This document shows positions 1 through 10,532 of a DNA stretch of 10,987 bases, piece by piece (within the stretch, counting starts at the first letter, position 1; each line of letters begins with the position of its first letter). Under the pieces are notes generated by a model, which had not been told where the DNA came from, made no database searches, and was given only the letters and a program-made list of their open reading frames with translations. The position numbers and the translations under genes are program-made. This stretch comes from Nitrospira defluvii (GTDB lineage: Bacteria; Nitrospirota; Nitrospiria; Nitrospirales; Nitrospiraceae), in the NCBI GenBank assembly GCA_016199015.1, contig JACQHN010000442.1, positions 1 to 10,987 of the forward strand. Reading direction: 5' to 3'.

Positions 1-316
1 GCAGGATGCCGTGGTCGCCATGGAGCATGAAACGCAGGCGGTGGAAGCCGGATCCGCTTCGGCCCTCCGGACCGGCGACGTGTTCGCTGAAATTTCAGAC
101 ATTGCGAAACGGTCTTCCGAGTTGGCCCAGAACATCGCGAGCGCGGCGTCCGAACAGACCGCCTCGACGGAAAAAGTCGGTCGAGCCATTAAGGAGTTCA
201 CCGGCGGCGCCGTGGCGACGCAGAAGCAGACAGACTCAACACGACTCACGATCGAGGACATGGCAAAATTGGCCGAAGGTCTCAACTCGTCGGTCGCTCA
301 GTTCAAACTTGCGTAG
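1..316 (+). CDS. Methyl-accepting chemotaxis protein, C-terminal fragment (5' end outside window)
   Basis: The reading frame is open from base 2 and ends at TAG 314-316, so this is the tail of a longer gene. The roughly 104 visible residues are helical. They carry the heptad-like pattern of the descending arm of an MCP cytoplasmic signalling hairpin, including EISDIAKRSSELAQNIASA followed by SEQTASTEKV. The final residues (SSVAQFKLA) form a typical MCP terminus, and no CheR-binding pentapeptide (NWETF-like) is present. Known family role: a membrane receptor relays ligand state to a CheA/CheW array. The hairpin tip and sensor region lie upstream and are not visible. Its position directly before the CheA gene, 52 nt from its chosen start, suggests it is the dedicated receptor. 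The ATG at 11 is internal, not the start. Confidence 0.9.
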   Translation, partial: QDAVVAMEHETQAVEAGSASALRTGDVFAEISDIAKRSSELAQNIASAASEQTASTEKVGRAIKEFTGGAVATQKQTDSTRLTIEDMAKLAEGLNSSVAQFKLA

Positions 317-368
317 AGCACCTCTTGAAGAGCGGTCATGAGTGTCCGCTCGGATGTTGAGTGGGTCA

Positions 369-3300
369 ATGAGCTCTGACTTTGATCGCGATCAGCTGCT
401 GGACATTTTCGTCGCCGAAGCCGGTGACGATATGAAACGGTTCTGGAAGGCGTTGCATCCTGAGGGGAAAGCGCATCCTGAACCAGGCGAAGTGGCCGAG
501 TTTCATGCAGTCGGCCACAAGTTGAAGGGCGCGGCGCTGCTGTATGGATTTGCCGGGCTCGGCCAACTTGGGGCGTTGCTCGAAGAGACATTGGAACAGG
601 TGCAGGAGATTCCTGCCGAACGATGGCCCGCCGTCCTTCAATTGATTCGGGACATCGTGGCCTCTTTTCGGAGTCAGGTGGAGCAGATTGGACGCGGCGG
701 AGGCGAGGACCCATCCGTTGTTGAGAATTTCGTCCGACGATGTGGTGAGTTGGTGCCGGCTGGTTCGGCCGAGGTCTCTGCCGACTCTGGTGAAACCTTG
801 GATAAACCGGCGGAAGACTACCTGATTCCCGGTCTCGACGAGGAAGTCCTCTCCTACTTTTCCCCAGAAGCCGAAGAGTATCTCAACACCATTCAGACAC
901 TTCTGCAGCGGTTGGAAGCCGACTCGCAGGATCCCGAGACGATTCACCAATTGTATCGGGTCGCTCATACCCTGAAGGGGTCGGCCTATACCGTCGGGTT
1001 TCAGGTAGTTGGAGATATCGCCCATCCGATCGAAGCCTGCATGATCGCCGTTCGGGAAGGGCGTGCGGCCATCGCTCCACATTGGATCACCGTGATCCGG
1101 CATTCTGTTGAGGTGATCCGCTCCCTTATGGCGCGAGACGCGCAATTGGGACCTCGCTTACAGCAGGAGGTTCCTCGCATCAAGACATTGCTTTGGGAGT
1201 TGGAGGAAGGCGTGGGTCAAGCCCCGGCCGCAGCACCTGCGTCCGATCACCTTGAGGCGACACCGGTGCAAGAGGTGATGCCACCCGCCACGTCCGTCGC
1301 CACCACAACCGTTCAACCTGTGAGCGCGACCCACTCAAGCGTGCTCACGGAAGACTATCTGATTCCAAACCTTGATCCCGAAGTGATGTCGTATTTCGCG
1401 CCGGAAGCCCAGGAGTATTTGGAGAATCTAGAGGCTGATCTGTTGCGGGTTGATAAGGGTGCAGCCGATCCGGAGACGATCCATCAACTGTTTCGTACGG
1501 CCCATACGCTCAAAGGGTCGGCCTATACCGTGGGATTCCAGGCGATTGGGGATCTGACGCACCACATTGAAGACTTCATGGGGACTGTCCGCGAGGGGCA
1601 CCTTCAGCTTCTCCCCGGTCACACGGATGTGCTGTTGCGCGCGATCGATGTCATTCGTGCCCTGATGCGACGTGATCCCTCGATACTGAGTCGTACGCGA
1701 CAACGATTTGCCGCGTCGCTACAGGAGCTGAAGCACCTAGGCCAAACCCAATCGGCGCCCGACGAAACACAGCAGGCTGTGCAGGTGTCTTCTGAGGCTG
1801 CCGCAGTTGAAGACGTGAGCGAAGCCGTCGGTGTCGAGTCGTCCCAAAGCGTGGCGGGTAAAGCGGGTGAAGAGCGTGAGGTGATCCGGGTCAGCCGTGA
1901 TCGCTTGGAGCGCCTGCTGAATCTGGTCGGCGAATTGGTCATCGACCGCGGACGCCTCGAGCAGCGGCTTCGGACTTTGGATCAACTGGCCTCCCAAGTC
2001 GTGGCCAACAAGAGCCGGTTGATCGACGCGGTTCGAACATTCGAGGACAAGCACACGTTCTCCTTTCAGCCGTCGCCCACATCATCAAGCGAAGAGCTGC
2101 CACAATCCCTTGCTGGGGTCAGTGATTTCGGAAGTTTGGAGTTCGACAAATACGACGACTTCAACATTTTGGCTCGGCGCATCAGCGAGGTGACGGCAGA
2201 CATTACCGAATCCATGTCGCAGTTGACCGGATCGATCCACCGCGCACAAGACGACATGGGGCAGTTGCAGCAACTGACGTTGGGCATGCGTGACGAAATC
2301 GCCCGTGCTCGAATGGTGCCGATCGGGACGCCCTTTACTCGGTTCCGCCGTGCCGCGCGTGAGATGGCCCGTGCCACAGGCAAGGAAGTCAACCTGGTCA
2401 CGTCCGGTGAACACACCGAAATCGACACCGGAGTGGTCGAACGCCTCGTCGATCCACTGGTGCACCTGGTGAGGAATGCGGTCTACCATGGGATTGAGCC
2501 CTCAGGCACCCGTCTCAGCCAAGGCAAACCGGCAGTCGGCACGATTTATCTTCACGCGGCGCATCGAGGAAACTCGGTGCTTATCGAAGTGGAAGACGAT
2601 GGCGCGGGTCTCGATATCGCGAAGATCAAGGTCAAAGCCATCAAGCTGGGGCTCGTGAGGCCGGATGTCGCGGAATCATTGCCTGAGAGCGAAGTCATCA
2701 AATTTATTTTTCTGCCTGGATTCTCCACCGCGGATAGCGTCGGCGATCAAGCGGGTCGGGGTGTCGGAATGGATGTGGTCAAGCGTGTCATCGAGACGAT
2801 GAACGGCCACATCGAAGTGGAATCGGTCCGCGGGCAGGGCACCAAGTTTACGATGCATCTCCCGCTCACCCTCCTGATCGCGACCGCCTTGCTCGTCCGA
2901 GTCGAAAAGGATCGCTATGCGATCCCGCTTCCCAGCGTGCGCGAGGTGACGATGTCGACCGCGTCGACGATCCAGCAGATGGGAGATCGCTCCGTGATGC
3001 AGATCGGCGACGAGGCTATCGAGGTGTTTCCGCTCGGGAGTCTCATTCGTCGGGAGTCTGGCACCATTGATGGTTCCAAGCCTGTGGTGGTCGTCCGGAC
3101 ATCGACCGGAGCGCTCGGCTGTGCCGTCGATGAGTTACTGGGCCGGCAAGAAATTGTCATTAAGTCGTTAGGGGCCTTGAAGCCGTATGAGCGTTCGGTG
3201 TTCGGGGGGGCCACCATTGATCCCGAAGGACGCATCGTGCTGGTGCTGGATGTGAGCCGGCTGACGACGCGTGAATATCATGAAGCGATCTCAACAGGAC

Positions 3301-3749
3301 AGAGCGGTCTTGCGTCGTCGCCGGACGGACCGGTGCAGGATGCCCCAGCGCAGCTCTCGGATACACGTTTGCCGCTGTTGTTGATCGACGACTCGCTGAG
3401 TATCAGAAAATTCGTGGGACGCATGCTTGAAGCGGCCGGCTACACCGTCGATACAGCAACGGATGGAGAGGAAGGATGCCGCAAAGCATTGATGCAGAAC
3501 TATCAGCTCATTATCACTGATCTCGAAATGCCGAAGCTGAATGGGTATGAAGTGATTCAAGCGCTCCGCGCGAGGCCACAGACACACACGACGCCGATTC
3601 TGGTGATGACCACACGGGCGGGCGAAAAACATCGCCAAATGGCCGTCAGTGTGGGCGCGTCTGGCTACATTGCCAAACCGGTCGAAGAACGGGCCTTGAT
3701 CCAAGAAGTCCAGAGATGGACGGGCCGCGAAGCCGGAGTGAGAAAATAG
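369..3749 (+). CDS. cheA: Hybrid chemotaxis histidine kinase CheA with three Hpt domains and a C-terminal receiver
   Basis: The product is 1126 aa from ATG 369. Three Hpt (P1) domains carry phospho-accepting His at H50 (HKLKGAA), H200 and H379 (both HTLKGSA). A P3 dimerisation region spans about 504-650. The HATPase domain has N box N703 (HLVRN), G1 D743-D744-G745 and G2 GRGVGM (796-801). A CheW-like domain follows at about 838-965, then a receiver with D1007/D1008, phospho-acceptor D1051 and K1103. The P3 insert contains LEFDKYD, a motif I associate with ChpA/PilL-type kinases. A P2 CheY-binding domain is not apparent. Known role: ATP-dependent autophosphorylation in a receptor array, then transfer to receivers. 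The second and third Hpt domains are a recent duplication. Start choice: ATG 369 begins directly with the usual MSS-DFDRDQLL start of such kinases; GTG 342 (1135 aa) and ATG 354 are alternatives, and no site has a strong ribosome binding site. The hybrid architecture and multiple Hpts fit Pil-Chp or Frz-type systems rather than flagellar CheA. Confidence 0.95.
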   Translation: MSSDFDRDQLLDIFVAEAGDDMKRFWKALHPEGKAHPEPGEVAEFHAVGHKLKGAALLYGFAGLGQLGALLEETLEQVQEIPAERWPAVLQLIRDIVASFRSQVEQIGRGGGEDPSVVENFVRRCGELVPAGSAEVSADSGETLDKPAEDYLIPGLDEEVLSYFSPEAEEYLNTIQTLLQRLEADSQDPETIHQLYRVAHTLKGSAYTVGFQVVGDIAHPIEACMIAVREGRAAIAPHWITVIRHSVEVIRSLMARDAQLGPRLQQEVPRIKTLLWELEEGVGQAPAAAPASDHLEATPVQEVMPPATSVATTTVQPVSATHSSVLTEDYLIPNLDPEVMSYFAPEAQEYLENLEADLLRVDKGAADPETIHQLFRTAHTLKGSAYTVGFQAIGDLTHHIEDFMGTVREGHLQLLPGHTDVLLRAIDVIRALMRRDPSILSRTRQRFAASLQELKHLGQTQSAPDETQQAVQVSSEAAAVEDVSEAVGVESSQSVAGKAGEEREVIRVSRDRLERLLNLVGELVIDRGRLEQRLRTLDQLASQVVANKSRLIDAVRTFEDKHTFSFQPSPTSSSEELPQSLAGVSDFGSLEFDKYDDFNILARRISEVTADITESMSQLTGSIHRAQDDMGQLQQLTLGMRDEIARARMVPIGTPFTRFRRAAREMARATGKEVNLVTSGEHTEIDTGVVERLVDPLVHLVRNAVYHGIEPSGTRLSQGKPAVGTIYLHAAHRGNSVLIEVEDDGAGLDIAKIKVKAIKLGLVRPDVAESLPESEVIKFIFLPGFSTADSVGDQAGRGVGMDVVKRVIETMNGHIEVESVRGQGTKFTMHLPLTLLIATALLVRVEKDRYAIPLPSVREVTMSTASTIQQMGDRSVMQIGDEAIEVFPLGSLIRRESGTIDGSKPVVVVRTSTGALGCAVDELLGRQEIVIKSLGALKPYERSVFGGATIDPEGRIVLVLDVSRLTTREYHEAISTGQSGLASSPDGPVQDAPAQLSDTRLPLLLIDDSLSIRKFVGRMLEAAGYTVDTATDGEEGCRKALMQNYQLIITDLEMPKLNGYEVIQALRARPQTHTTPILVMTTRAGEKHRQMAVSVGASGYIAKPVEERALIQEVQRWTGREAGVRK
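813..1061 (+). repeat. Tandem Hpt duplication, copy 1 (second Hpt domain of CheA)
   Basis: The 83 codons from EDYLIP to VREG encode the second Hpt domain, with H200 in HTLKGSAYTVGF. Aligned without gaps to 1350-1598, I count 54 identical residues of 83 (65 percent). Both copies are exactly 249 nt. Copies differ most in the second half of the first helix and just after the GD of the third helix. Confidence 0.9.
1350..1598 (+). repeat. Tandem Hpt duplication, copy 2 (third Hpt domain of CheA)
   Basis: The 83 codons encode the third Hpt domain, with H379 in HTLKGSAYTVGF, and pair without gaps with 813-1061. A linker of about 96 residues rich in Ala, Pro, Thr and Val separates the copies. The first Hpt domain (H50) is clearly more divergent, so the duplication involves only the second and third domains. 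Confidence 0.9.
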
Positions 3750-3796
3750 GAACGGTTTGCTGATTCTCTGCTTCGCTGTCAGAATGAAGGTCAACC

Positions 3797-4369
3797 ATGA
3801 GCCTCCGAGGACATAAGACTGCAGCCGCGACGAGTGGACAGACGGTCAGGTTTTTGGTGGCACTCGTCGGACCTATCCATGTCGCCTTTCCGGCTCACTG
3901 GGTTCGCGGCATCATCACGCTTGCCGAAGCAGGGCGTGAGGGACTCGTCACCTGGGCCAACTCCTCCTATGAGAGGACCGACCTCGCCGGCCGGCTCACC
4001 ATCGGAGCCCAAATGACAACGGCTGAAACACGGATCATTCTGTACGGCAATGATCAGCGATCTCGATCATTTATGGTAGACGGAGTGTTGGGCCTTGTGG
4101 ACGTCGATCGGTCGCAGGTTCAGCCACTCCCACCACAGTTTCGAGGAGGGGAGCGCGACCGACTGCTCGGCCTTTTTTCAGGTACGGCCTATGTCGCACT
4201 CATTGCCAATCCTTTCTGGGTGCTTGAACTCCCACCTCGCAAGAATGCCCTGGATGCCTTCGTCTTTCAGGCCTCTGAACGCCGAGCGGGAGAGTTTGAC
4301 TCCAGGCTTCGCCTGTCGTCCGCCACCCACGAAGACGCCGTCCCGACACCAGCGGGTCATAAGACGTAG
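3797..4369 (+). CDS. Divergent CheW-like adaptor protein (first copy)
   Basis: The product is 190 aa. GAAGG at 3786-3790 lies 6 nt before the ATG and supports this start. Residues from about 17 fit the CheW beta-barrel fold: FLVALVGPIHVAFP matches the first CheW strands (FxLxxxxYAIP), TRIILYG matches the mid-domain strand, and FMVDGVLGLVDV matches the usual LLVDxVxEV segment. FSGTAYVALIANPFWVLEL then ends the domain in place of the usual VLDL strand. The normal GxINLRGxVIPVxDL segment is altered to about WANSSYERTDLAGRL. A variable tail of about 35 residues follows. Known family role: CheW couples MCPs to CheA. Here it is inferred to be an adaptor of this array, supported by its place between CheA and a second CheW-like gene 16 nt downstream. 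The divergence could mean altered partners. I am fairly confident of the family and less so of its function. Confidence 0.8.
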   Translation: MSLRGHKTAAATSGQTVRFLVALVGPIHVAFPAHWVRGIITLAEAGREGLVTWANSSYERTDLAGRLTIGAQMTTAETRIILYGNDQRSRSFMVDGVLGLVDVDRSQVQPLPPQFRGGERDRLLGLFSGTAYVALIANPFWVLELPPRKNALDAFVFQASERRAGEFDSRLRLSSATHEDAVPTPAGHKT

Positions 4370-4385
4370 AAACCGAGGTTGACCC

Positions 4386-4865
4386 ATGTTACGCGCTCAG
4401 TTACGCAGGCAGGCCCAAGTGGGGACGAAGGGTACCGCGGAGGCGCGGATGCAGGGCCTGGTCGTGTTCTCAGTGGCAGGGCAACGGCTCGCCGCCAGGA
4501 CTGACGAGATTGGCGGCGTCATGCCATGGCCTGGCGCGACCGCCGTCCCCAGTGACACGCCGTTCGTCGCCGCGCTCGTCCGTCAAGAGAAGCGTTGCCT
4601 CCCAGTGTTCGACTTGGCGGCAAAGTTTAACCGTACCATGCACGAGAATGAGCTGTTGTGTCTGATCGTCAAACACATCGATGGCCCTCTCGCAATTTGT
4701 ATCGATTCCCAGGTTCCATCACTTCACATGGTGGCCCGCTCATCAATGCACTATCGAGTCGGGAGCGACCCCGACATCGCCGGGACGTGCGTGGCCGACG
4801 AGGAAGAACTTCCCATCATCAACCTGACGACCCTTGGGGTCTCATCGATCCGTCCCGCGAGATGA
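4386..4865 (+). CDS. Divergent CheW-like adaptor protein (second copy)
   Basis: The product is 159 aa. The CheW core starts at about residue 22: LVVFSVAGQRLAAR (first strands), FVAALVRQEKRCLPVFDLA (equivalent of the INLRGxVIPVIDL segment), LLCLIVKHIDGPLAICID (mid-domain strands and the VD-type segment) and ELPIINLTTL (final strand). The residues preceding it are basic. It has little similarity to the neighbouring adaptor beyond the fold. ATG 4386 is preceded by GAGG at 4375-4378 (7-nt spacing). An internal ATG at 4449 has GGAGG 5 nt upstream and would give a 138-aa protein starting exactly at the CheW core, so the true start is uncertain. Inferred role: a second adaptor in the same CheA array, perhaps for another receptor set, like the multiple CheW-like proteins of Pil-Chp systems. 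Confidence 0.8.
   Translation: MLRAQLRRQAQVGTKGTAEARMQGLVVFSVAGQRLAARTDEIGGVMPWPGATAVPSDTPFVAALVRQEKRCLPVFDLAAKFNRTMHENELLCLIVKHIDGPLAICIDSQVPSLHMVARSSMHYRVGSDPDIAGTCVADEEELPIINLTTLGVSSIRPAR
4439..4443 (+). promoter_or_regulatory. Possible internal ribosome binding site for ATG 4449
   Basis: GGAGG sits 5 nt before an in-frame ATG at 4449. It is a better Shine-Dalgarno match than GAGG before ATG 4386, and the CheW core begins at this ATG. It may instead be a by-product of the Ala-Glu-Ala codons there. Confidence 0.3.
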
Positions 4866-4890
4866 GCCCTGCATCGTCTAGAGGAACGAC

Positions 4891-6372
4891 ATGCCAAAGA
4901 TTTTGATTGCCGATGACAGTATCGCAGTTCGCAAGGTGGCCGAGCGTCTCCTGACCGAGGCAGGAATGGGCGTCACCCTGGCTGCCAACGGCTCCGAGGC
5001 TCTGGCGCTCCTCAGTAAGGATCGTCCGGATTTAATCGTGTCCGACGTCATTATGCCGGACAAAAGCGGCTATGAGGTCTGTGCATTCATCCGGGCGCAG
5101 GCAAACCTCGCGGACATTCCCGTGCTCTTGATCAGCGGGATTGTGAACGACGAAGTATCTCGGCAGGCGGAATCTTGCAAGGCCGATGGGGTATTGAAGA
5201 AGCCGTTCCAGGGAACGTCGCTGAAAGATCGGGTGTTGGATTTGCTCATGAAGCGGCAGCCCAAACCCGCGTCGGATCCCCAACCGTCTCCAAGTCCGGC
5301 CTATGCGGAGAAGTCCGTCATTGAGGAGCACCCTGTCGCGCCGATCGCATGCACGCCCGAAGATGCTGAACGCACTCTTGTGACAAACCAGGAATGTCAG
5401 CAACAGAACGAATCTGCCATGATCAGTCTTCCAGAGCCGGACTTGATGTCGCTTTCGGCGGACAGCCACGAGGTCGTGGCGCCCATGGCAGATCATCCGC
5501 CTGTTGCGTCGAGTGTCTTGCAGGAAGTCAACGATCGACACGCGGAGGTTCTGGCACAGCGCGATGCTCGAATCACAGCACTTGAGGAACAACTTACCTG
5601 TGAACGTCAACAGAGTCATGAGCAGATACAGCAGATGCAGAGTGCGCTGGCTGAACAACGCCTGCAGGTCGCAGACTTATCCTCACGCACTGGAGCACTC
5701 GATCAGGCACTGACGGAGGAACGTGCGCAGCGGGCGACCCTTACGGAACAATTGGAAGACATATCGAGACAGGCTCATCGGGTCGATGAGCTGGAAACCG
5801 CCTTGGCCGAAGCTCGTCATGGAACGGAGGAACTCTTACAACAAGTCTCGGACAATGCCAGCAACGCTGCTCGTATTCTGGAATTGGAGGCGCATCTTGC
5901 GGCAGAGCGTGGCGCCGCTACTCAATTGGTCCAGCAGATCACCACACTTGAACATATCGAAGGCCGCGCGCATGAGCTCGAAACGACCCTCGCGAGCGAG
6001 CGCGAGGAGACGGAGGCTTGCCGAAAGCAAAGCGCCGCATTCGAGACGCTCGCTGCCCGAGTACCGGCCCTTGAAGAGGTCCTTGGGCAGGAGCGCGCGC
6101 GCATTGCGGAACTCGATGGCCTACTCGCGACGGAGCGGGAGGCGGCAGTGTTGGTGATGACACAGGTCAAACAGCTGGAAACGGCCGTTCAGCGTGCCCA
6201 TGAGCTCGACCTCGCATTAGCCGATGAGCGGGAGCGTTCAATGCAATTGATGAAACGTGCGACGGAAGCTGAGCATATGGCGGAACAGTCCAATCGGCGA
6301 TTTGAAGATATGGCGCGGAAGCTGGGCGAGATCGCGGGACTCGCCTCCCAACTCGGGAATGGAAAACGCTAG
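4891..6372 (+). CDS. Response regulator: receiver domain fused to a long repeated coiled coil
   Basis: The product is 493 aa. GAGGA at 4881-4885 (5-nt spacing) supports the start. Residues 1-125 are a receiver with the full active site: acidic pair D8/D9, phospho-acceptor D52 (SDVIMPD), S82 and K104 (KKPF). A Pro/Glu-rich linker runs to about 230. Beyond it lies an almost uninterrupted coiled coil rich in Leu, Glu, Ala, Arg and Gln. Residues 270-469 consist of six 31-residue units with a 14-residue insertion. No DNA-binding, enzymatic or membrane segment is visible. Expected role: it accepts phosphate from CheA and acts by oligomerising or recruiting partners. The layout resembles FrzS and AglZ of Myxococcus, receiver-coiled-coil proteins in motility and polarity control; this is an architectural analogy, not shown homology. 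Unlike FrzS, whose receiver is degenerate, this one appears phosphorylatable. The gene starts 25 nt after the second CheW-like gene. Confidence 0.88.
   Translation: MPKILIADDSIAVRKVAERLLTEAGMGVTLAANGSEALALLSKDRPDLIVSDVIMPDKSGYEVCAFIRAQANLADIPVLLISGIVNDEVSRQAESCKADGVLKKPFQGTSLKDRVLDLLMKRQPKPASDPQPSPSPAYAEKSVIEEHPVAPIACTPEDAERTLVTNQECQQQNESAMISLPEPDLMSLSADSHEVVAPMADHPPVASSVLQEVNDRHAEVLAQRDARITALEEQLTCERQQSHEQIQQMQSALAEQRLQVADLSSRTGALDQALTEERAQRATLTEQLEDISRQAHRVDELETALAEARHGTEELLQQVSDNASNAARILELEAHLAAERGAATQLVQQITTLEHIEGRAHELETTLASEREETEACRKQSAAFETLAARVPALEEVLGQERARIAELDGLLATEREAAVLVMTQVKQLETAVQRAHELDLALADERERSMQLMKRATEAEHMAEQSNRRFEDMARKLGEIAGLASQLGNGKR
5698..6297 (+). repeat. 31-residue (93-nt) coiled-coil repeats, six units
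   Basis: Six units of exactly 31 residues begin at codons 270, 301, 332, 363, 408 and 439 of the receiver-coiled-coil gene. Each starts L-[E/D]-x-x-L, followed by Glu-Arg or a close variant at unit positions 8-9. Arg occupies unit position 28 in units one to five. A 14-residue insertion (codons 394-407, 6070-6111), itself starting LEEVLGQER, separates the fourth and fifth units. A looser related segment precedes at codons 231-269. The repeat is clear in protein; the DNA copies have diverged. Confidence 0.85.
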
Positions 6373-6419
6373 CAGGCCTTCACCCGCCCACCTTTCCGGG
6401 CGAGTACATGAGTCAGGGC

Positions 6420-6423
6420 AGGA
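6420..6423 (+). promoter_or_regulatory. Ribosome binding site deciding GTG start 6431
   Basis: AGGA lies 7 nt before GTG 6431, within a purine-rich stretch that also includes AGGG at 6415-6418. The upstream in-frame ATG at 6359, which would overlap the previous gene, has no comparable site. Confidence 0.5.
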
Positions 6424-6430
6424 TGCCACC

Positions 6431-7378
6431 GTGTCGACCGAATCAGAACAAACCGAAGACGATTTTCAGAAGGAACTGGTTGAACTCTTCGGCCAAGAAG
6501 CCCAGGAGTGGCTCATTCAAATCCATTCGGCACTGACCGAACTTGAAAATCAGCCTGATCTCGATCGCCATACCCAACTCGTGGATGCAGTCGTACGAGG
6601 CATTACCAGTCTCGGCGGCTCTGCAGCCACGGTGAATCTCTCCGATGTGGAACGTGCCACCTTCGCATTGCTCCCGTTCATTGACACTCTCAAAGACCGG
6701 ACCACGGCCACGAGGCAGGATTACGCCACTGTCCGCGAGCAGTTCCGCATCGTCATGACGTCCGTGACGACGGCGACTGGCATTACACTTGATCTTGGAC
6801 TCTCCCAGGAGGCGCCACCGCAATCCGAACCGGCGGCCGATCTCCTGACGCTCCTGAATGCGCTCCGAGCCCTTCAGGATGACTACGCTGTGAGTGGACT
6901 TTCCCCCCGTAGTCTTATTCCCCACGTCATGCAGCGTCTGGAGTACGAGGCCAGGCAAGGGGCTGAGCAGATTCAGGCGACCAGCTTTCATCAGATGCTG
7001 CGAGATCTACAAGTGGCTGATGCGCAATGCTTGGAATCCCTACGACAACAATTGCCGGACGTGGCTCAGCACCTGAGCCGACTCCGCACGGAAGGATTGA
7101 CCGCACTGGAGCCTAGCAATATGCTGGGCGGATGTATCCAGAACATCGAACACCTTCAGGGGATTGCCAAGCAGGCGCAGGTCACCCCACTGGTTACCTT
7201 TCTGGCCGGTCTCCAAAGTTTTCTTTCGCTCATCGTTCAGCATCGCATCGTCATCACTTCGCAGCGGGTGCATTCGGTGGAAACACGAATCCGTGCCGTG
7301 CTGGTCACCATCGGGGAATGGATCACTGCAGGAGAGCAGGAACGGGATGCGATGGGCGGACTGCTGCCGGTGGTTTAA
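6431..7378 (+). CDS. Hpt-like protein with Thr at the phospho-His site plus a helical C-terminal domain
   Basis: The product is 315 aa from GTG 6431. ATG 6359 would add 24 residues and overlap the receiver-coiled-coil gene by 14 nt. Residues 10-110 match the Hpt domains of the upstream CheA: FGQEAQEWLIQIHSAL aligns with the first helix, and SLGGSAATVNL aligns with TLKGSAYTVGF. In that alignment the phospho-accepting His is T59 and the following Lys is G62, so ordinary phosphohistidine transfer is not expected. Residues 137-315 form a helical region that I cannot name, ending with ERDAMGGLLPVV. The whole chain is paralogous to the C-terminal half of the HD-GYP protein downstream. Thr and Ser versions of Hpt domains are known in Pseudomonas ChpA (Tpt/Spt). 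Role here is inferred: a docking, buffering or Thr-phosphorylated partner of the CheA or a receiver. No signal peptide or membrane segment is seen. Confidence 0.75.
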   Translation: MSTESEQTEDDFQKELVELFGQEAQEWLIQIHSALTELENQPDLDRHTQLVDAVVRGITSLGGSAATVNLSDVERATFALLPFIDTLKDRTTATRQDYATVREQFRIVMTSVTTATGITLDLGLSQEAPPQSEPAADLLTLLNALRALQDDYAVSGLSPRSLIPHVMQRLEYEARQGAEQIQATSFHQMLRDLQVADAQCLESLRQQLPDVAQHLSRLRTEGLTALEPSNMLGGCIQNIEHLQGIAKQAQVTPLVTFLAGLQSFLSLIVQHRIVITSQRVHSVETRIRAVLVTIGEWITAGEQERDAMGGLLPVV

Positions 7379-7495
7379 CCAATAGCACACCTCCCCGGTG
7401 CCTTCGTTCCGGCTCGTTGCTAATATGTCGAATCCTCGGGGAGTGTCCCTACGGCCGCTCACGAAGTGCGGCGACGGCTGTTTGACGACGAATTT

Positions 7496-7511
7496 AGGCA
7501 CGAAAGACGCT
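7496..7511 (+). promoter_or_regulatory. Weak sigma-54-like -24/-12 element
   Basis: AGGCACG, four bases, then ACGCT resembles TGGCACG-N4-TTGCW. The GG and GC are 10 nt apart as required, but the TT before GC is missing. Transcription would start near 7522, about 55 nt before the HD-GYP start. A chance match is quite possible. Confidence 0.2.
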
Positions 7512-7567
7512 GTGGTATGGATGGGAGAGGCCTGCTACATGAGCTAACGTGTGCAGGCTGGAAGGAA

Positions 7568-7573
7568 AAGGAG
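7568..7573 (+). promoter_or_regulatory. Ribosome binding site deciding ATG start 7578
   Basis: AAGGAG lies 4 nt before ATG 7578 and favours this start over the in-frame GTG at 7551, which has no purine-rich site at the right distance. Confidence 0.6.
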
Positions 7574-7577
7574 CGCA

Positions 7578-9665
7578 ATGGGGGAGACGGAACAGAATCG
7601 CTACCGGCAGGCCGAAGAGGCACTCATGCAGGTGGCCGCCGCCGTTCAGCGACAGGAGCGGGTAGATCTCACAGAGATGACCCATCTTGCCGGAACTATA
7701 GTCGATTCGATTCAAGAAAGCGATCAGTTGGTCGTCGAGGCGCTCTCAAGTCCCGCAGGCATCCCGCTGGTGACGAATCTCGTCAATGTCAGCATTCTGG
7801 GCACGAAGGTCGGCATTGGCCTCGGTTACTATGGCGCGGAATTGCGACGATTGGCATTGGCCGGCCTGGTGCACGACATCGGTATTTTCGCTGTGCCGCA
7901 GAACCTGCTCACAAAAACCGGACGCCTGTCCCCTGATGAGCGAGCCCTGGTCGAGCAACATCCGCGTCTGGGGTGTGGGGTGATTGAGCGTCTCGGATCG
8001 GAGTACGCCTGGTTGGCTGAAGTCGTGCTGCAGGCCCATGAGCGGGGGAGGGGACAGGGGTATCCCAATCGCTTGAAGGGCCGAGAGATCAACGAGCTGG
8101 CGCAAATCATCGGCCTCGTTGATATTTTCGATGCCCTTGTCAGTCCCCGTCCCTATCGTCGGCGCCTGCTGCCGCACGAAGCCATCCGCGAGTTGCTGAA
8201 CACCGAACGCACTGCGTTTCCACGTGAAATCATGAAAGGGTTGGTCGAGCAGTTGTCGGTCTATCCTTTGGGGACGAAGGTCCGGCTGAACAGCGGAGAG
8301 GAAGGAGTGGTCGTCCGCATCACGCCCTCGCACCCCTCGCGCCCGGTTCTTCGCGTGACTGGGGAGCAAGAGGAGTCCGTGACCGCTGTGCCGCGCTATC
8401 TCGATCTGAGTGTGTTGCCCCATGTGTCCGTAGCGGACACGGTTGATCCACCGGCGCTGGAGCGGATCACCTTCCCGTCTTCCCCGCCATCTGTTGAAGC
8501 GGCCGCGTCGTCTACCAACGCATCGGAGCAGTTTGCCGCTTTACTCGAGAGCCTTGATGCGATTGCTGGTGTGATTCAGGCTGCGGTGGAAAAGTCCCCG
8601 GCTCCTGCCTTCATCGACCATGCTCCGTCGGTCGTCGATCCTTCTGAACAGGCGACGCATGTAAGACGGGAAATTCTTGGCTTGTTCGTGCTGGAAGCTC
8701 GTGAATGGCTCAACCAAATTCAGACGGCTCTAGAGCGACTGGATACGACGAGCGAGCAGCCTCGCCGTGCCAGGCTGGCTACGATTCTGTGGCAGAGTGT
8801 GAGCAACCTCGCCCGCTCCGCTGCGACCGTCGGCCTGACGGCCGTGGAGGACATGGCCACGACACTTCTTCCGATCCTCCAGGCGGCGGTTAAGCATGAG
8901 CGGACTGTGGCGGCCCATCATGTGGCTTCGCTTCGGGAAGGTCTTTTGCTGATCACCAAGACCGTGCATGAGCTCGAACAGGTCGAGGCCATGCCGAATG
9001 AAGGCGCCGTCCCAGCTTCATCCACACCGGAGCGCATGCAAGGCGAGGAGTCGCTTCAATCGATGAGCGCGGAAGCCTCTCTCCCAACGGAGCCCTCCGA
9101 CCAACAGGAAGCTCATGGCGTGGTACCCTCCGCCCCCATTCTCGATGCCTTACGACAATTGCATGTGGCGCGAGGGCGGTCGGTTCAACCTGTGCGCGAT
9201 GTGCTGGAGACGGTCATTCAATGGTCTGAGCGTAAGATGGAACGCAATGCAGAGGTCGTGGATGCCCGAACCATCGGTCGCATCTTGAAAGACTTGGATG
9301 AGCTGGATGAACAATTTCTCGCGCACATGCAGACGCATGTTCCGGCTGTTCTCGCCACGCTCGGTCACATCGATCGTGCCAGCGAGGAGTGCGCCCTTCC
9401 TCCCCAGGCGTTGGAGCCTGTCTTTGATGAAATCGACATTCTTTCTGACGCGGCAGAACGGGTCTCAGCCGCAAATATCGCCCTGTTTTTAAACGGCTTG
9501 CGTATATTTCTCCGTGTCACGGTCCACCAGAAACCTTCTGCTGTGCGCGAACGATTGGATGCCGTGAAGGAACGGTTGGTCGCTCTGGTTCCGTTGGCCC
9601 AACAGTGGGTCGATATCGGCCGAGTGGAACGAGCGGCAATTTTCGACATTCTCCCCTTGGCGTAG
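7578..9665 (+). CDS. HD-GYP domain protein fused to a Ser-type Hpt-like module
   Basis: The product is 695 aa. The HD-GYP domain spans about 58-230, with H99-D100 (HDIG), H128 (QHPRLG), H154 (AHER), GYP 161-163 and D182 (LVDIFDAL). Known family role: hydrolysis of cyclic di-GMP to pGpG or GMP at a two- or three-metal site. Two usual ligand positions differ: the first His is N67 (TNLVNVS) and the first His of the HHE motif is A153; the Lys after HDIG is Ile. Activity is therefore uncertain. A beta-rich extension follows (LSVYPLGTKVRLNSGEEG, about 226-285), as in related HD-GYP proteins. After a linker, 362-460 is an Hpt-like domain whose His position is S409 (SNLARSAATVGL). An acidic, Ser/Pro-rich linker and a helical domain (519-695) complete the chain. 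The 362-695 region is paralogous to the gene just upstream. The fusion suggests that the chemosensory kinase cluster influences c-di-GMP levels (inference). Confidence 0.85.
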   Translation: MGETEQNRYRQAEEALMQVAAAVQRQERVDLTEMTHLAGTIVDSIQESDQLVVEALSSPAGIPLVTNLVNVSILGTKVGIGLGYYGAELRRLALAGLVHDIGIFAVPQNLLTKTGRLSPDERALVEQHPRLGCGVIERLGSEYAWLAEVVLQAHERGRGQGYPNRLKGREINELAQIIGLVDIFDALVSPRPYRRRLLPHEAIRELLNTERTAFPREIMKGLVEQLSVYPLGTKVRLNSGEEGVVVRITPSHPSRPVLRVTGEQEESVTAVPRYLDLSVLPHVSVADTVDPPALERITFPSSPPSVEAAASSTNASEQFAALLESLDAIAGVIQAAVEKSPAPAFIDHAPSVVDPSEQATHVRREILGLFVLEAREWLNQIQTALERLDTTSEQPRRARLATILWQSVSNLARSAATVGLTAVEDMATTLLPILQAAVKHERTVAAHHVASLREGLLLITKTVHELEQVEAMPNEGAVPASSTPERMQGEESLQSMSAEASLPTEPSDQQEAHGVVPSAPILDALRQLHVARGRSVQPVRDVLETVIQWSERKMERNAEVVDARTIGRILKDLDELDEQFLAHMQTHVPAVLATLGHIDRASEECALPPQALEPVFDEIDILSDAAERVSAANIALFLNGLRIFLRVTVHQKPSAVRERLDAVKERLVALVPLAQQWVDIGRVERAAIFDILPLA

Positions 9666-10007: not shown

Positions 10008-10532
10008 ATGCCAAAACTCGTGACAGTCAAACAACAAGAAGGGCAGGACGCAAAAGCGACCGCCTACGTCAAAGCCTACATTTTATTTCCAGCCGGTATT
10101 CTCGGCTTGGTCTCCATGGTCGGTGGCGTCGGCGCCTTGGGGTACCAACTCATTGCCACCGACACCTACACCTGGGAAACCTTTCTGCAAAGTTCAGGGT
10201 TGTTAGTGCTGGGAGGGGTGCTTGGCTGGTTGCAGACGACGTATCACCGGTGGATTCTGCGCCATCGCCCTGAGGTCTTCGCTGCACGCATGCGGCAGCC
10301 GACGCTCAAGAAGGGTGGACGTCTCAAGCGTCAGGGCGGGTCGGAGCAGGACTCGCCCAGCGGGTCGCCTTGGGCTCCTGTCGCCTACATGGCCGGCCTG
10401 GCGCTGCTCCTGTTTGGATCCACGGTCGGCGTGGTCTATGGCGCGGTGTATCCGGTCGCTGCGTATTTCCTGCCCTGGGCAGGGTTTTTTTGGGCGAAGC
10501 TGTTCTTTTGGCGCACGGTCCTGAAAAACTGA
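10008..10532 (+). CDS. Small four-helix membrane protein of unknown function
   Basis: The product is 174 aa and I do not recognise its family. A short polar N-terminus is followed by predicted membrane segments at about 24-49 (LFPAGILGLVSMVGGVGALG) and 59-79 (rich in Gly and Leu). A basic Ser/Gly/Lys/Arg loop spans about 80-121, then two further hydrophobic segments at about 124-147 and 149-170, the last rich in Trp and Phe. No catalytic motif is visible. ATG 10008 is the only plausible start, because an in-frame stop lies at 9978-9980. No Shine-Dalgarno sequence is apparent, so translation could be weak or leaderless. The gene converges on lpxD with only 18 nt between stops. Any link to the envelope rests on this neighbourhood alone. 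Confidence 0.75.
   Translation: MPKLVTVKQQEGQDAKATAYVKAYILFPAGILGLVSMVGGVGALGYQLIATDTYTWETFLQSSGLLVLGGVLGWLQTTYHRWILRHRPEVFAARMRQPTLKKGGRLKRQGGSEQDSPSGSPWAPVAYMAGLALLLFGSTVGVVYGAVYPVAAYFLPWAGFFWAKLFFWRTVLKN

Follow-up and report, generated by a model that had tools for sequence, protein, structure and literature searches.

What use could a chemosensory pathway have for proteins that resemble the Hpt domains of its own kinase and lack the phospho-accepting His? This question is raised by contig JACQHN010000442.1 of the Nitrospira defluvii assembly GCA_016199015.1, whose full length of 10,987 nucleotides was analyzed (the window). It carries the 3′ end of a gene for a membrane receptor, followed by genes for a hybrid CheA kinase, two divergent CheW-like proteins (W1 and W2), a receiver-coil protein (RCC), and two proteins, referred to here as TPT and HDS, that contain pseudo-Hpt domains with Thr and Ser, respectively, in place of the His; HDS also contains a degenerate HD-GYP domain. 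In our judgment, it is about an even call that these genes encode a Pil-Chp-like array for type IV pilus-dependent surface motility or cell polarity, with phosphate-inert docking and with HDS binding cyclic di-GMP (c-di-GMP).

Conservation of the cluster

The CheA loci of relatives were collected by a scan with six peptides of the window CheA, which favors close relatives. Of the 68 loci obtained, two with CheA scores below 350 bits (L071 and L073) were dropped, and 51 of the other 66, those with at least 7.5 kb of downstream sequence, were counted. A close CheA (at least 900 bits) is present in 45 of these 51 loci; the records of these 45 are labeled Nitrospira, Nitrospirae, Nitrospirota, or similar (one is labeled Nitrosospira). 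W1, W2, RCC, and TPT follow this CheA on its strand in every case (45/45; TPT was also scored when a short open reading frame [ORF] matched the HDS query), and HDS follows in 40, comprising all 35 loci with a CheA of at least 1350 bits and 5 of the 10 below that score. In the six remoter CheA loci, from other or unnamed phyla, W1, W2, RCC, TPT, and HDS were not found at the thresholds used. Upstream of CheA, CheY and receptor genes are found in all 41 loci with room for them. The cluster of the relatives consists of nine genes, coding for CheY, CheW, a 4HB receptor, the hybrid CheA, the two divergent CheW-like proteins, RCC, TPT, and HDS.

The distribution of TPT was also examined across the phylum, in a sample of 245 genomes. 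TPT of full length (at least 177 bits) was detected in 67 of the 71 genomes of the family that includes the window's genus and in none of the 174 others, 20 of which yielded only partial Hpt matches; genome G107, with TPT fragments that contain a stop, was left out of the 67. The fused HDS accompanies TPT in 37 of these 67 genomes, including all 17 drawn from the window's genus (it was called from a second profile match within a frame of 616 to 776 amino acids, which leaves the HD part unread in the 20 genomes outside the genus). In 36 genomes, the two matches share a strand and are at most 4 kb apart; in G207, they are on two contigs. In 24 of the remaining 30 TPT genomes, an HD-GYP-like gene stands unfused at no more than 1 kb from TPT; in four others, the only match is a remote paralog, and in the last two, no match was obtained at E ≤ 1e-45. 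This adds up to 61 of the 67 family genomes in which TPT is accompanied by an HD-GYP-like gene (adjoining in 60 and split over two contigs in one). In the window's genus, full-length HDS was found in 28 of 29 genomes, the exception being the fragmented G019. As for the order in which the fused and unfused forms originated, the tree has three label changes and long branches, with 23 of its 81 inner branches open.

The first-pass annotation had joined these genes into one pathway by inference from gene order and Hpt ancestry. That they form one conserved module is borne out by the succession of TPT after CheA in 45/45 loci and the pairing of an HD-GYP-like gene with TPT in 61/67 genomes; CheA without the last two genes, which would have spoken against the module, is not the rule among relatives. 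In some relatives, a gene for an AAA_22 ATPase lies between TPT and the HD-GYP gene (L019 16889-17719, L031 16887-17729, L040 16789-18147, and L123 12321-13121); for those of L019, L031, and L040, the nearest NCBIfam model is TIGR03015 (XrtA-associated ATPase), below its cut-off. In genome G228 (L124 4487-8528), which lacks the flagellar marker FliF, no HD-GYP gene follows TPT, and the three downstream ORFs have no Pfam match (E ≤ 0.01).

Pseudo-Hpt, HD-GYP, and receiver domains

The hybrid CheA combines multiple Hpt domains with a C-terminal receiver, as identified by Pfam. In a 55-row alignment, the phospho-accepting His is found in every row that covers the respective site (51/51 for Hpt1, 46/46 for Hpt2, and 54/54 for Hpt3). 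At the equivalent site, it is found in none of the 48 TPT and none of the 43 HDS sequences aligned. Two further alignments comprised all 47 TPT relatives with 32 of the 42 HDS halves (A1) and 32 of the 42 HDS relatives (A2). The Pfam Hpt match of TPT is weak (17.3 bits, below the cut-off of 24.6), and the Pfam scan of HDS detected no Hpt domain. In pairwise hhalign comparisons, the pseudo-Hpt domains align with Hpt2 (E = 5.7e-11) and Hpt3 (E = 1.3e-10) of CheA, in agreement with the shared Hpt ancestry that had been proposed for them, and the C-terminal half of HDS proves homologous to TPT in both its Hpt-like part (E = 1.1e-35) and its C-terminal domain (E = 6e-39). Hpt kinship of this latter domain was not supported (best hhalign E = 4e-4, probability 35). 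A whole-molecule fold search with TPT returned no match at E ≤ 0.001, and after re-alignment, designed four-helix bundles score at least as high as CheA P1 against the TPT fold, so that the case for an Hpt fold in TPT is one made from its sequence profile.

With a site that lacks His and drifts among orthologs (see below), the pseudo-Hpt domains of TPT and HDS are probably phosphate-inert docking modules of the FimL kind. FimL is not known to have a phosphorylatable His, which is missing from TPT and HDS as well; it is not known to be fused to or encoded with an HD-GYP protein, in which it differs from them. Similarly to TPT, FimL is described as sharing homology with the Hpt-bearing end of its kinase, and it is thought to hold the response regulator PilG at the pole (PMC10519157). 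In Pil-Chp itself, inert Xpt domains of ChpA have been proposed to serve as scaffolds (PMC12632253).

The HD-GYP domain of HDS was compared with that of PmGH (4mcw), whose numbering is used here, by alignment to that protein and to other Nitrospira HD-GYP proteins; the position of H189 was set by spacing and confirmed by alignment to homologs that retain this residue. HDS keeps H221, D222, H250, H277, and D305, five of the eight metal ligands of PmGH, and has lost E185 (mostly replaced by Pro), H189 (Asn in 43/43), H276 (Ala in 43/43), and K225 (Leu in 23 and Ile in 20). Of the six ligands essential in PmGH (H189, H221, D222, H250, H276, and H277), all but H189 and H276 are thus present. The loss of H189 and H276 agrees in all 28 copies from the genus and extends to the unfused HD-GYP neighbors, with Asn for H189 in 24/24 and Ala (20) or Val (4) for H276. 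In contrast, the nucleotide-recognition residues, as defined in PmGH, are retained: the GYP motif and R314 in 43/43, K317 as Arg in 43/43, and I294 as Ile in 41 and Val in 2. Hydrolysis by PmGH is reported to be abolished when H189, H276, or K225 is replaced by Ala and to be little reduced by Ala at GYP, I294, R314, or K317, which are implicated in c-di-GMP recognition (PMC4159591). As a control, 11 other Nitrospira HD-GYP proteins, several of them orthologous pairs, were sampled from well over a hundred places; nine of the 11 keep H189, H276, and H277, and the two exceptions represent a single remote HDS paralog in two genomes. Lys at position 225 is found in only 2 of these 11 proteins, so its loss from HDS carries no weight.

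A remote paralog of the HDS HD-GYP domain, located elsewhere in several genomes (L103, L120, and L150-L155), has its own changes, with Met at K225, Glu at H276, and Asn at H189. Glu, Tyr, or Leu occupies the K225 position in other Nitrospira HD-GYP proteins (L102, L112, L113, L115-L117, and L119), and in L113 and L117, Leu replaces the HD histidine; many Nitrospira HD-GYP proteins look catalytically odd.

Within HDS, the HD-GYP domain is the most conserved part: across 32 relatives, its median identity to the window sequence is 72%, versus 42 to 44% in the remaining folded parts. Purifying selection is evident from a low ratio of nonsynonymous to synonymous substitution rates (dN/dS). A vestigial domain was considered and rejected on these two grounds. 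The structural model of HDS (predicted local distance difference test, pLDDT, 73; predicted template modeling score, pTM, 0.44) has DvhD of Desulfovibrio vulgaris (9RBZ) among its nearest solved structures. DvhD is described as a degenerate HD-GYP protein with a solved c-di-GMP complex that acts as a receptor without hydrolysis and in which neither the HD pair nor the double His is left (PMC13090378). HDS resembles it in having the HD-GYP fold with lost metal ligands and differs in retaining the HD pair and one His; the target of DvhD, an adhesin protease, is also different. Given the lost metal ligands, the kept nucleotide contacts, and the precedent of DvhD, the HD-GYP domain of HDS is probably a c-di-GMP receptor and not a phosphodiesterase.

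The receiver of RCC is intact, with the Asp pair, the phospho-accepting Asp, Ser, and Lys all present; the phospho-accepting Asp is kept in 55 of the 57 aligned rows, the other two being fragments. The coil contains a single proline in 289 residues and shows heptad periodicity at 3.5 residues in a windowed test (z = 5.6 against 200 shuffles); unwindowed (global) heptad power has no peak at 3.5. A receiver followed by a coiled coil is also the arrangement of FrzS and AglZ of Myxococcus xanthus; unlike RCC, FrzS has no phospho-accepting Asp in its receiver. FrzS is described as functioning in surface motility beside a chemosensory pathway (PMC1974792).

Output of the array and alternative readings

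The closest rival to a c-di-GMP-binding HDS is a purely structural HD-GYP domain that binds no nucleotide. Binding by HDS is a prediction, and R314, K317, and GYP are non-essential for the activity of PmGH (PMC4159591), which could be taken in favor of this rival; the retention of the nucleotide contacts while catalytic residues were lost and the highest conservation within HDS both argue against it, and we regard it as unlikely.

The output was assessed in the 79 genomes found to carry the cluster. Of these, 29 belong to the genus and were recognized by the long hybrid-CheA frame, and 50 are other family members, recognized by TPT; PilT was the only pilus marker, and FliF and FliG were the flagellar markers. 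PilT scored above the cut-off in all 79 genomes and FliF in 73. The six genomes without FliF (G008, G228, G143, G149, G161, and G187) belong to five genera; that of G143 is a single-contig assembly, and G008 has no FliG either. With PilT constant and FliF missing in six, pili are the steadier companion of the cluster, and the pilus or polarity output suggested by the first-pass annotation fits the co-occurrence better than a flagellar one; this output is favored here and unproven. Four family genomes have no cluster (G155, G159, G107, and G091, all small); FliF is found in none of them, two also have no PilT, and in G107, merely decayed pieces of both TPT and pilT remain. The fourth, G091, keeps PilT without the cluster and, as such an exception, weighs against a pilus output, as do four flagellated genomes in which the cluster CheA is the only CheA found, leaving a flagellar role open, and the failure to find a PilJ-type ligand-binding domain in the single receptor scanned, that of N. 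defluvii.

Control of the flagellum, with the co-occurrence of PilT reflecting mere shared ancestry, would account for those four flagellated genomes without any other CheA and for the presence of FliF in 73/79 cluster-bearing and 0/4 cluster-less family genomes. We nevertheless find it rather improbable, since six cluster-bearing genomes lack FliF and none lacks PilT and since the flagellum-less Nitrospira NS4 is reported to retain mcp, cheWY, and pilus genes (PMC12542776).

The first-pass annotation had described TPT and HDS as carrying Thr-type and Ser-type Hpt domains, and a true Thr/Ser phosphotransfer that extends the CheA relay could be envisaged: Thr is kept in 45 of the 48 TPT rows and in 24 of the 43 HDS rows, and ChpA is credited with Thr/Ser "Xpt" domains in a review of the Pil-Chp system (PMC12632253). 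However, the residue at this site drifts among orthologs, to Ile or Met in three TPT rows and to Ser, Asn, or Gly in 19 of the 43 HDS rows; because of this drift, phosphotransfer through Thr or Ser is rejected as very improbable, and docking without phosphate remains the preferred function of these domains. Least credible is an active HDS phosphodiesterase through which the array lowers c-di-GMP, as an earlier view of HDS as a c-di-GMP-adjusting enzyme implied: HD, GYP, and five metal ligands persist, but the two ligands whose replacement by Ala each abolished PmGH activity (PMC4159591) are gone from 43/43 fused and 24/24 unfused copies, and nine of the 11 control proteins keep both (the exceptions being the one remote HDS paralog).

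The overall composition is similar to that of Pil-Chp of Pseudomonas aeruginosa, in which, too, the hybrid CheA bears a receiver besides several Hpt domains and is accompanied by multiple CheW-like proteins and a free CheY-like regulator. The Nitrospira cluster differs in its receptor, which is of the 4HB_MCP rather than the PilJ type (4HB_MCP-HAMP-MCPsignal in Pfam, with no further domain at E ≤ 0.01, in the one full receptor scanned), in having no adjoining pil genes, and in its additional receiver-coil and pseudo-Hpt/HD-GYP proteins. No CheR or CheB homolog (PilK or ChpB) was found in a scan of the cluster genes and their neighbors, the remainder of the genome not having been searched. As the one receptor scanned is not of the PilJ type, the cluster is regarded here as Pil-Chp-like and not filed as a member of Pil-Chp. 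FimX offers a further parallel: this degenerate GGDEF-EAL protein serves the pilus extension complex as a c-di-GMP receptor, and HDS could have an analogous part in pilus polarity, binding c-di-GMP while catalytically dead and differing in its HD-GYP family, its fusion to a pseudo-Hpt domain, and a link to pili that is only presumed. The role of FimX in Pseudomonas pilus control is described as c-di-GMP dependent (PMC12632253). The statement that no named system has this set of genes can be kept for the assembly, which looks new, and not for its kind: Pil-Chp-like systems are known, and the composition resembles Pil-Chp with FimL and FimX functions added. What looks new is the combination of a receiver-coil protein, two pseudo-Hpt proteins, and an apparently dead HD-GYP domain fused to one of the latter; no description of this gene set was found among the literature matches listed.

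Contig layout and proposed working of the array

The window is the entire contig, C354 of a Nitrospira metagenome-assembled genome of 600 contigs that is 67% complete. Its CheA shares 94% identity with the CheA of Nitrospira sp. nzgw278, and the best named relatives are Nitrospira; the complete "Candidatus N. defluvii" genome also has the cluster. As described at first pass, the seven genes are open reading frames on one strand with the expected domains (Table 1), separated by gaps of 16 to 199 nt. The GTG start of TPT was deduced from spacing in relatives; the in-frame alternative, ATG 6359, would overlap the RCC stop.

Table 1. Genes of the chemosensory cluster in the window
Feature	Positions	Strand	Basis or remark
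MCP signaling-domain 3′ end, last 104 residues of receptor	2..316	+	Cut by contig end
Hybrid CheA: Hpt1, Hpt2, Hpt3, dimerization, HATPase_c, CheW, receiver	369..3749 (ATG 369 or GTG 342)	+	Pfam
W1, divergent CheW-like protein	3797..4369	+	Pfam, 27.8 bits
W2, divergent CheW-like protein	4386..4865	+	Pfam, 40.8 bits
RCC: receiver and ~290-residue coil	4891..6372	+	Pfam receiver, windowed heptad test
TPT: pseudo-Hpt (Thr replacing His) and helical C-terminal domain	6431..7378	+	Sequence profile, relatives
HDS: degenerate HD-GYP (residues ~63-232), small beta domain, pseudo-Hpt (Ser replacing His), TPT-like C-terminal domain	7578..9665	+	HD_5/HD match, profile alignment

The upstream part of the cluster is represented in the same assembly by contig C213 (L104), which carries CheY, a canonical CheW (the third CheW-like adaptor, also found upstream in relatives), and the front of the receptor. 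Positions 2806-3047 of C213 overlap window positions 1-242 at 92.6% identity, and this contig probably represents the upstream region of a variant strain; with an overlap merely 92.6% identical, the assembly seems to mix strains. HDS is followed by the gene of a small hydrophobic protein and by LpxD, on the opposite strand. The small protein (10008-10532) shows hydrophobic stretches by eye and matches no Pfam family above the cut-off, and N. defluvii has an ORF of equal size at the corresponding position (L009 19790-20314). Promoter and terminator scans of the window gave no excess over shuffles, an Rfam search of it returned no family, and a tRNA search found none.

By analogy with the respective families, the membrane receptor, the CheW proteins, and the hybrid CheA would put phosphate on the three His-bearing Hpt domains, from which it would pass to three receivers, those of the free CheY, of CheA itself, and of RCC. 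With its intact receiver and a coil that could extend to a polar site or help to form one, RCC is the likely spatial output. TPT and the HDS C-terminal half, which by sequence look like copies of the kinase Hpt domains that kept the fold and do not carry phosphate, would most likely hold a receiver, that of RCC or CheY, in place without phosphorylation, in the manner of FimL. By binding c-di-GMP without cleaving it, the HD-GYP domain of HDS could make this docking c-di-GMP dependent. A more specific possibility, advanced only tentatively and with the balance somewhat against it, is that HDS is a c-di-GMP-gated docking hub, a single polypeptide in which a FimL-like, phosphate-inert Hpt copy for receiver docking is linked to a dead HD-GYP domain sensing c-di-GMP, and where the level of the second messenger, and not phosphate transfer, holds or releases the receiver output at the pole. 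If so, this chemosensory pathway would have built two non-catalytic regulators from parts of its own relay.

The cluster bears on two open questions, the purpose of phosphate-inert Hpt-like domains in pilus-type kinases and the coupling of c-di-GMP to a chemosensory array, both of which the small soluble domains of these proteins make directly testable. Nitrospira, which live in flocs and biofilms, rank among the major nitrite oxidizers and complete ammonia oxidizers, and their surface sensing and movement are little described in the literature found. Present in 67/71 of the family genomes sampled, and so close to universal there, the cluster is probably central to this way of life.
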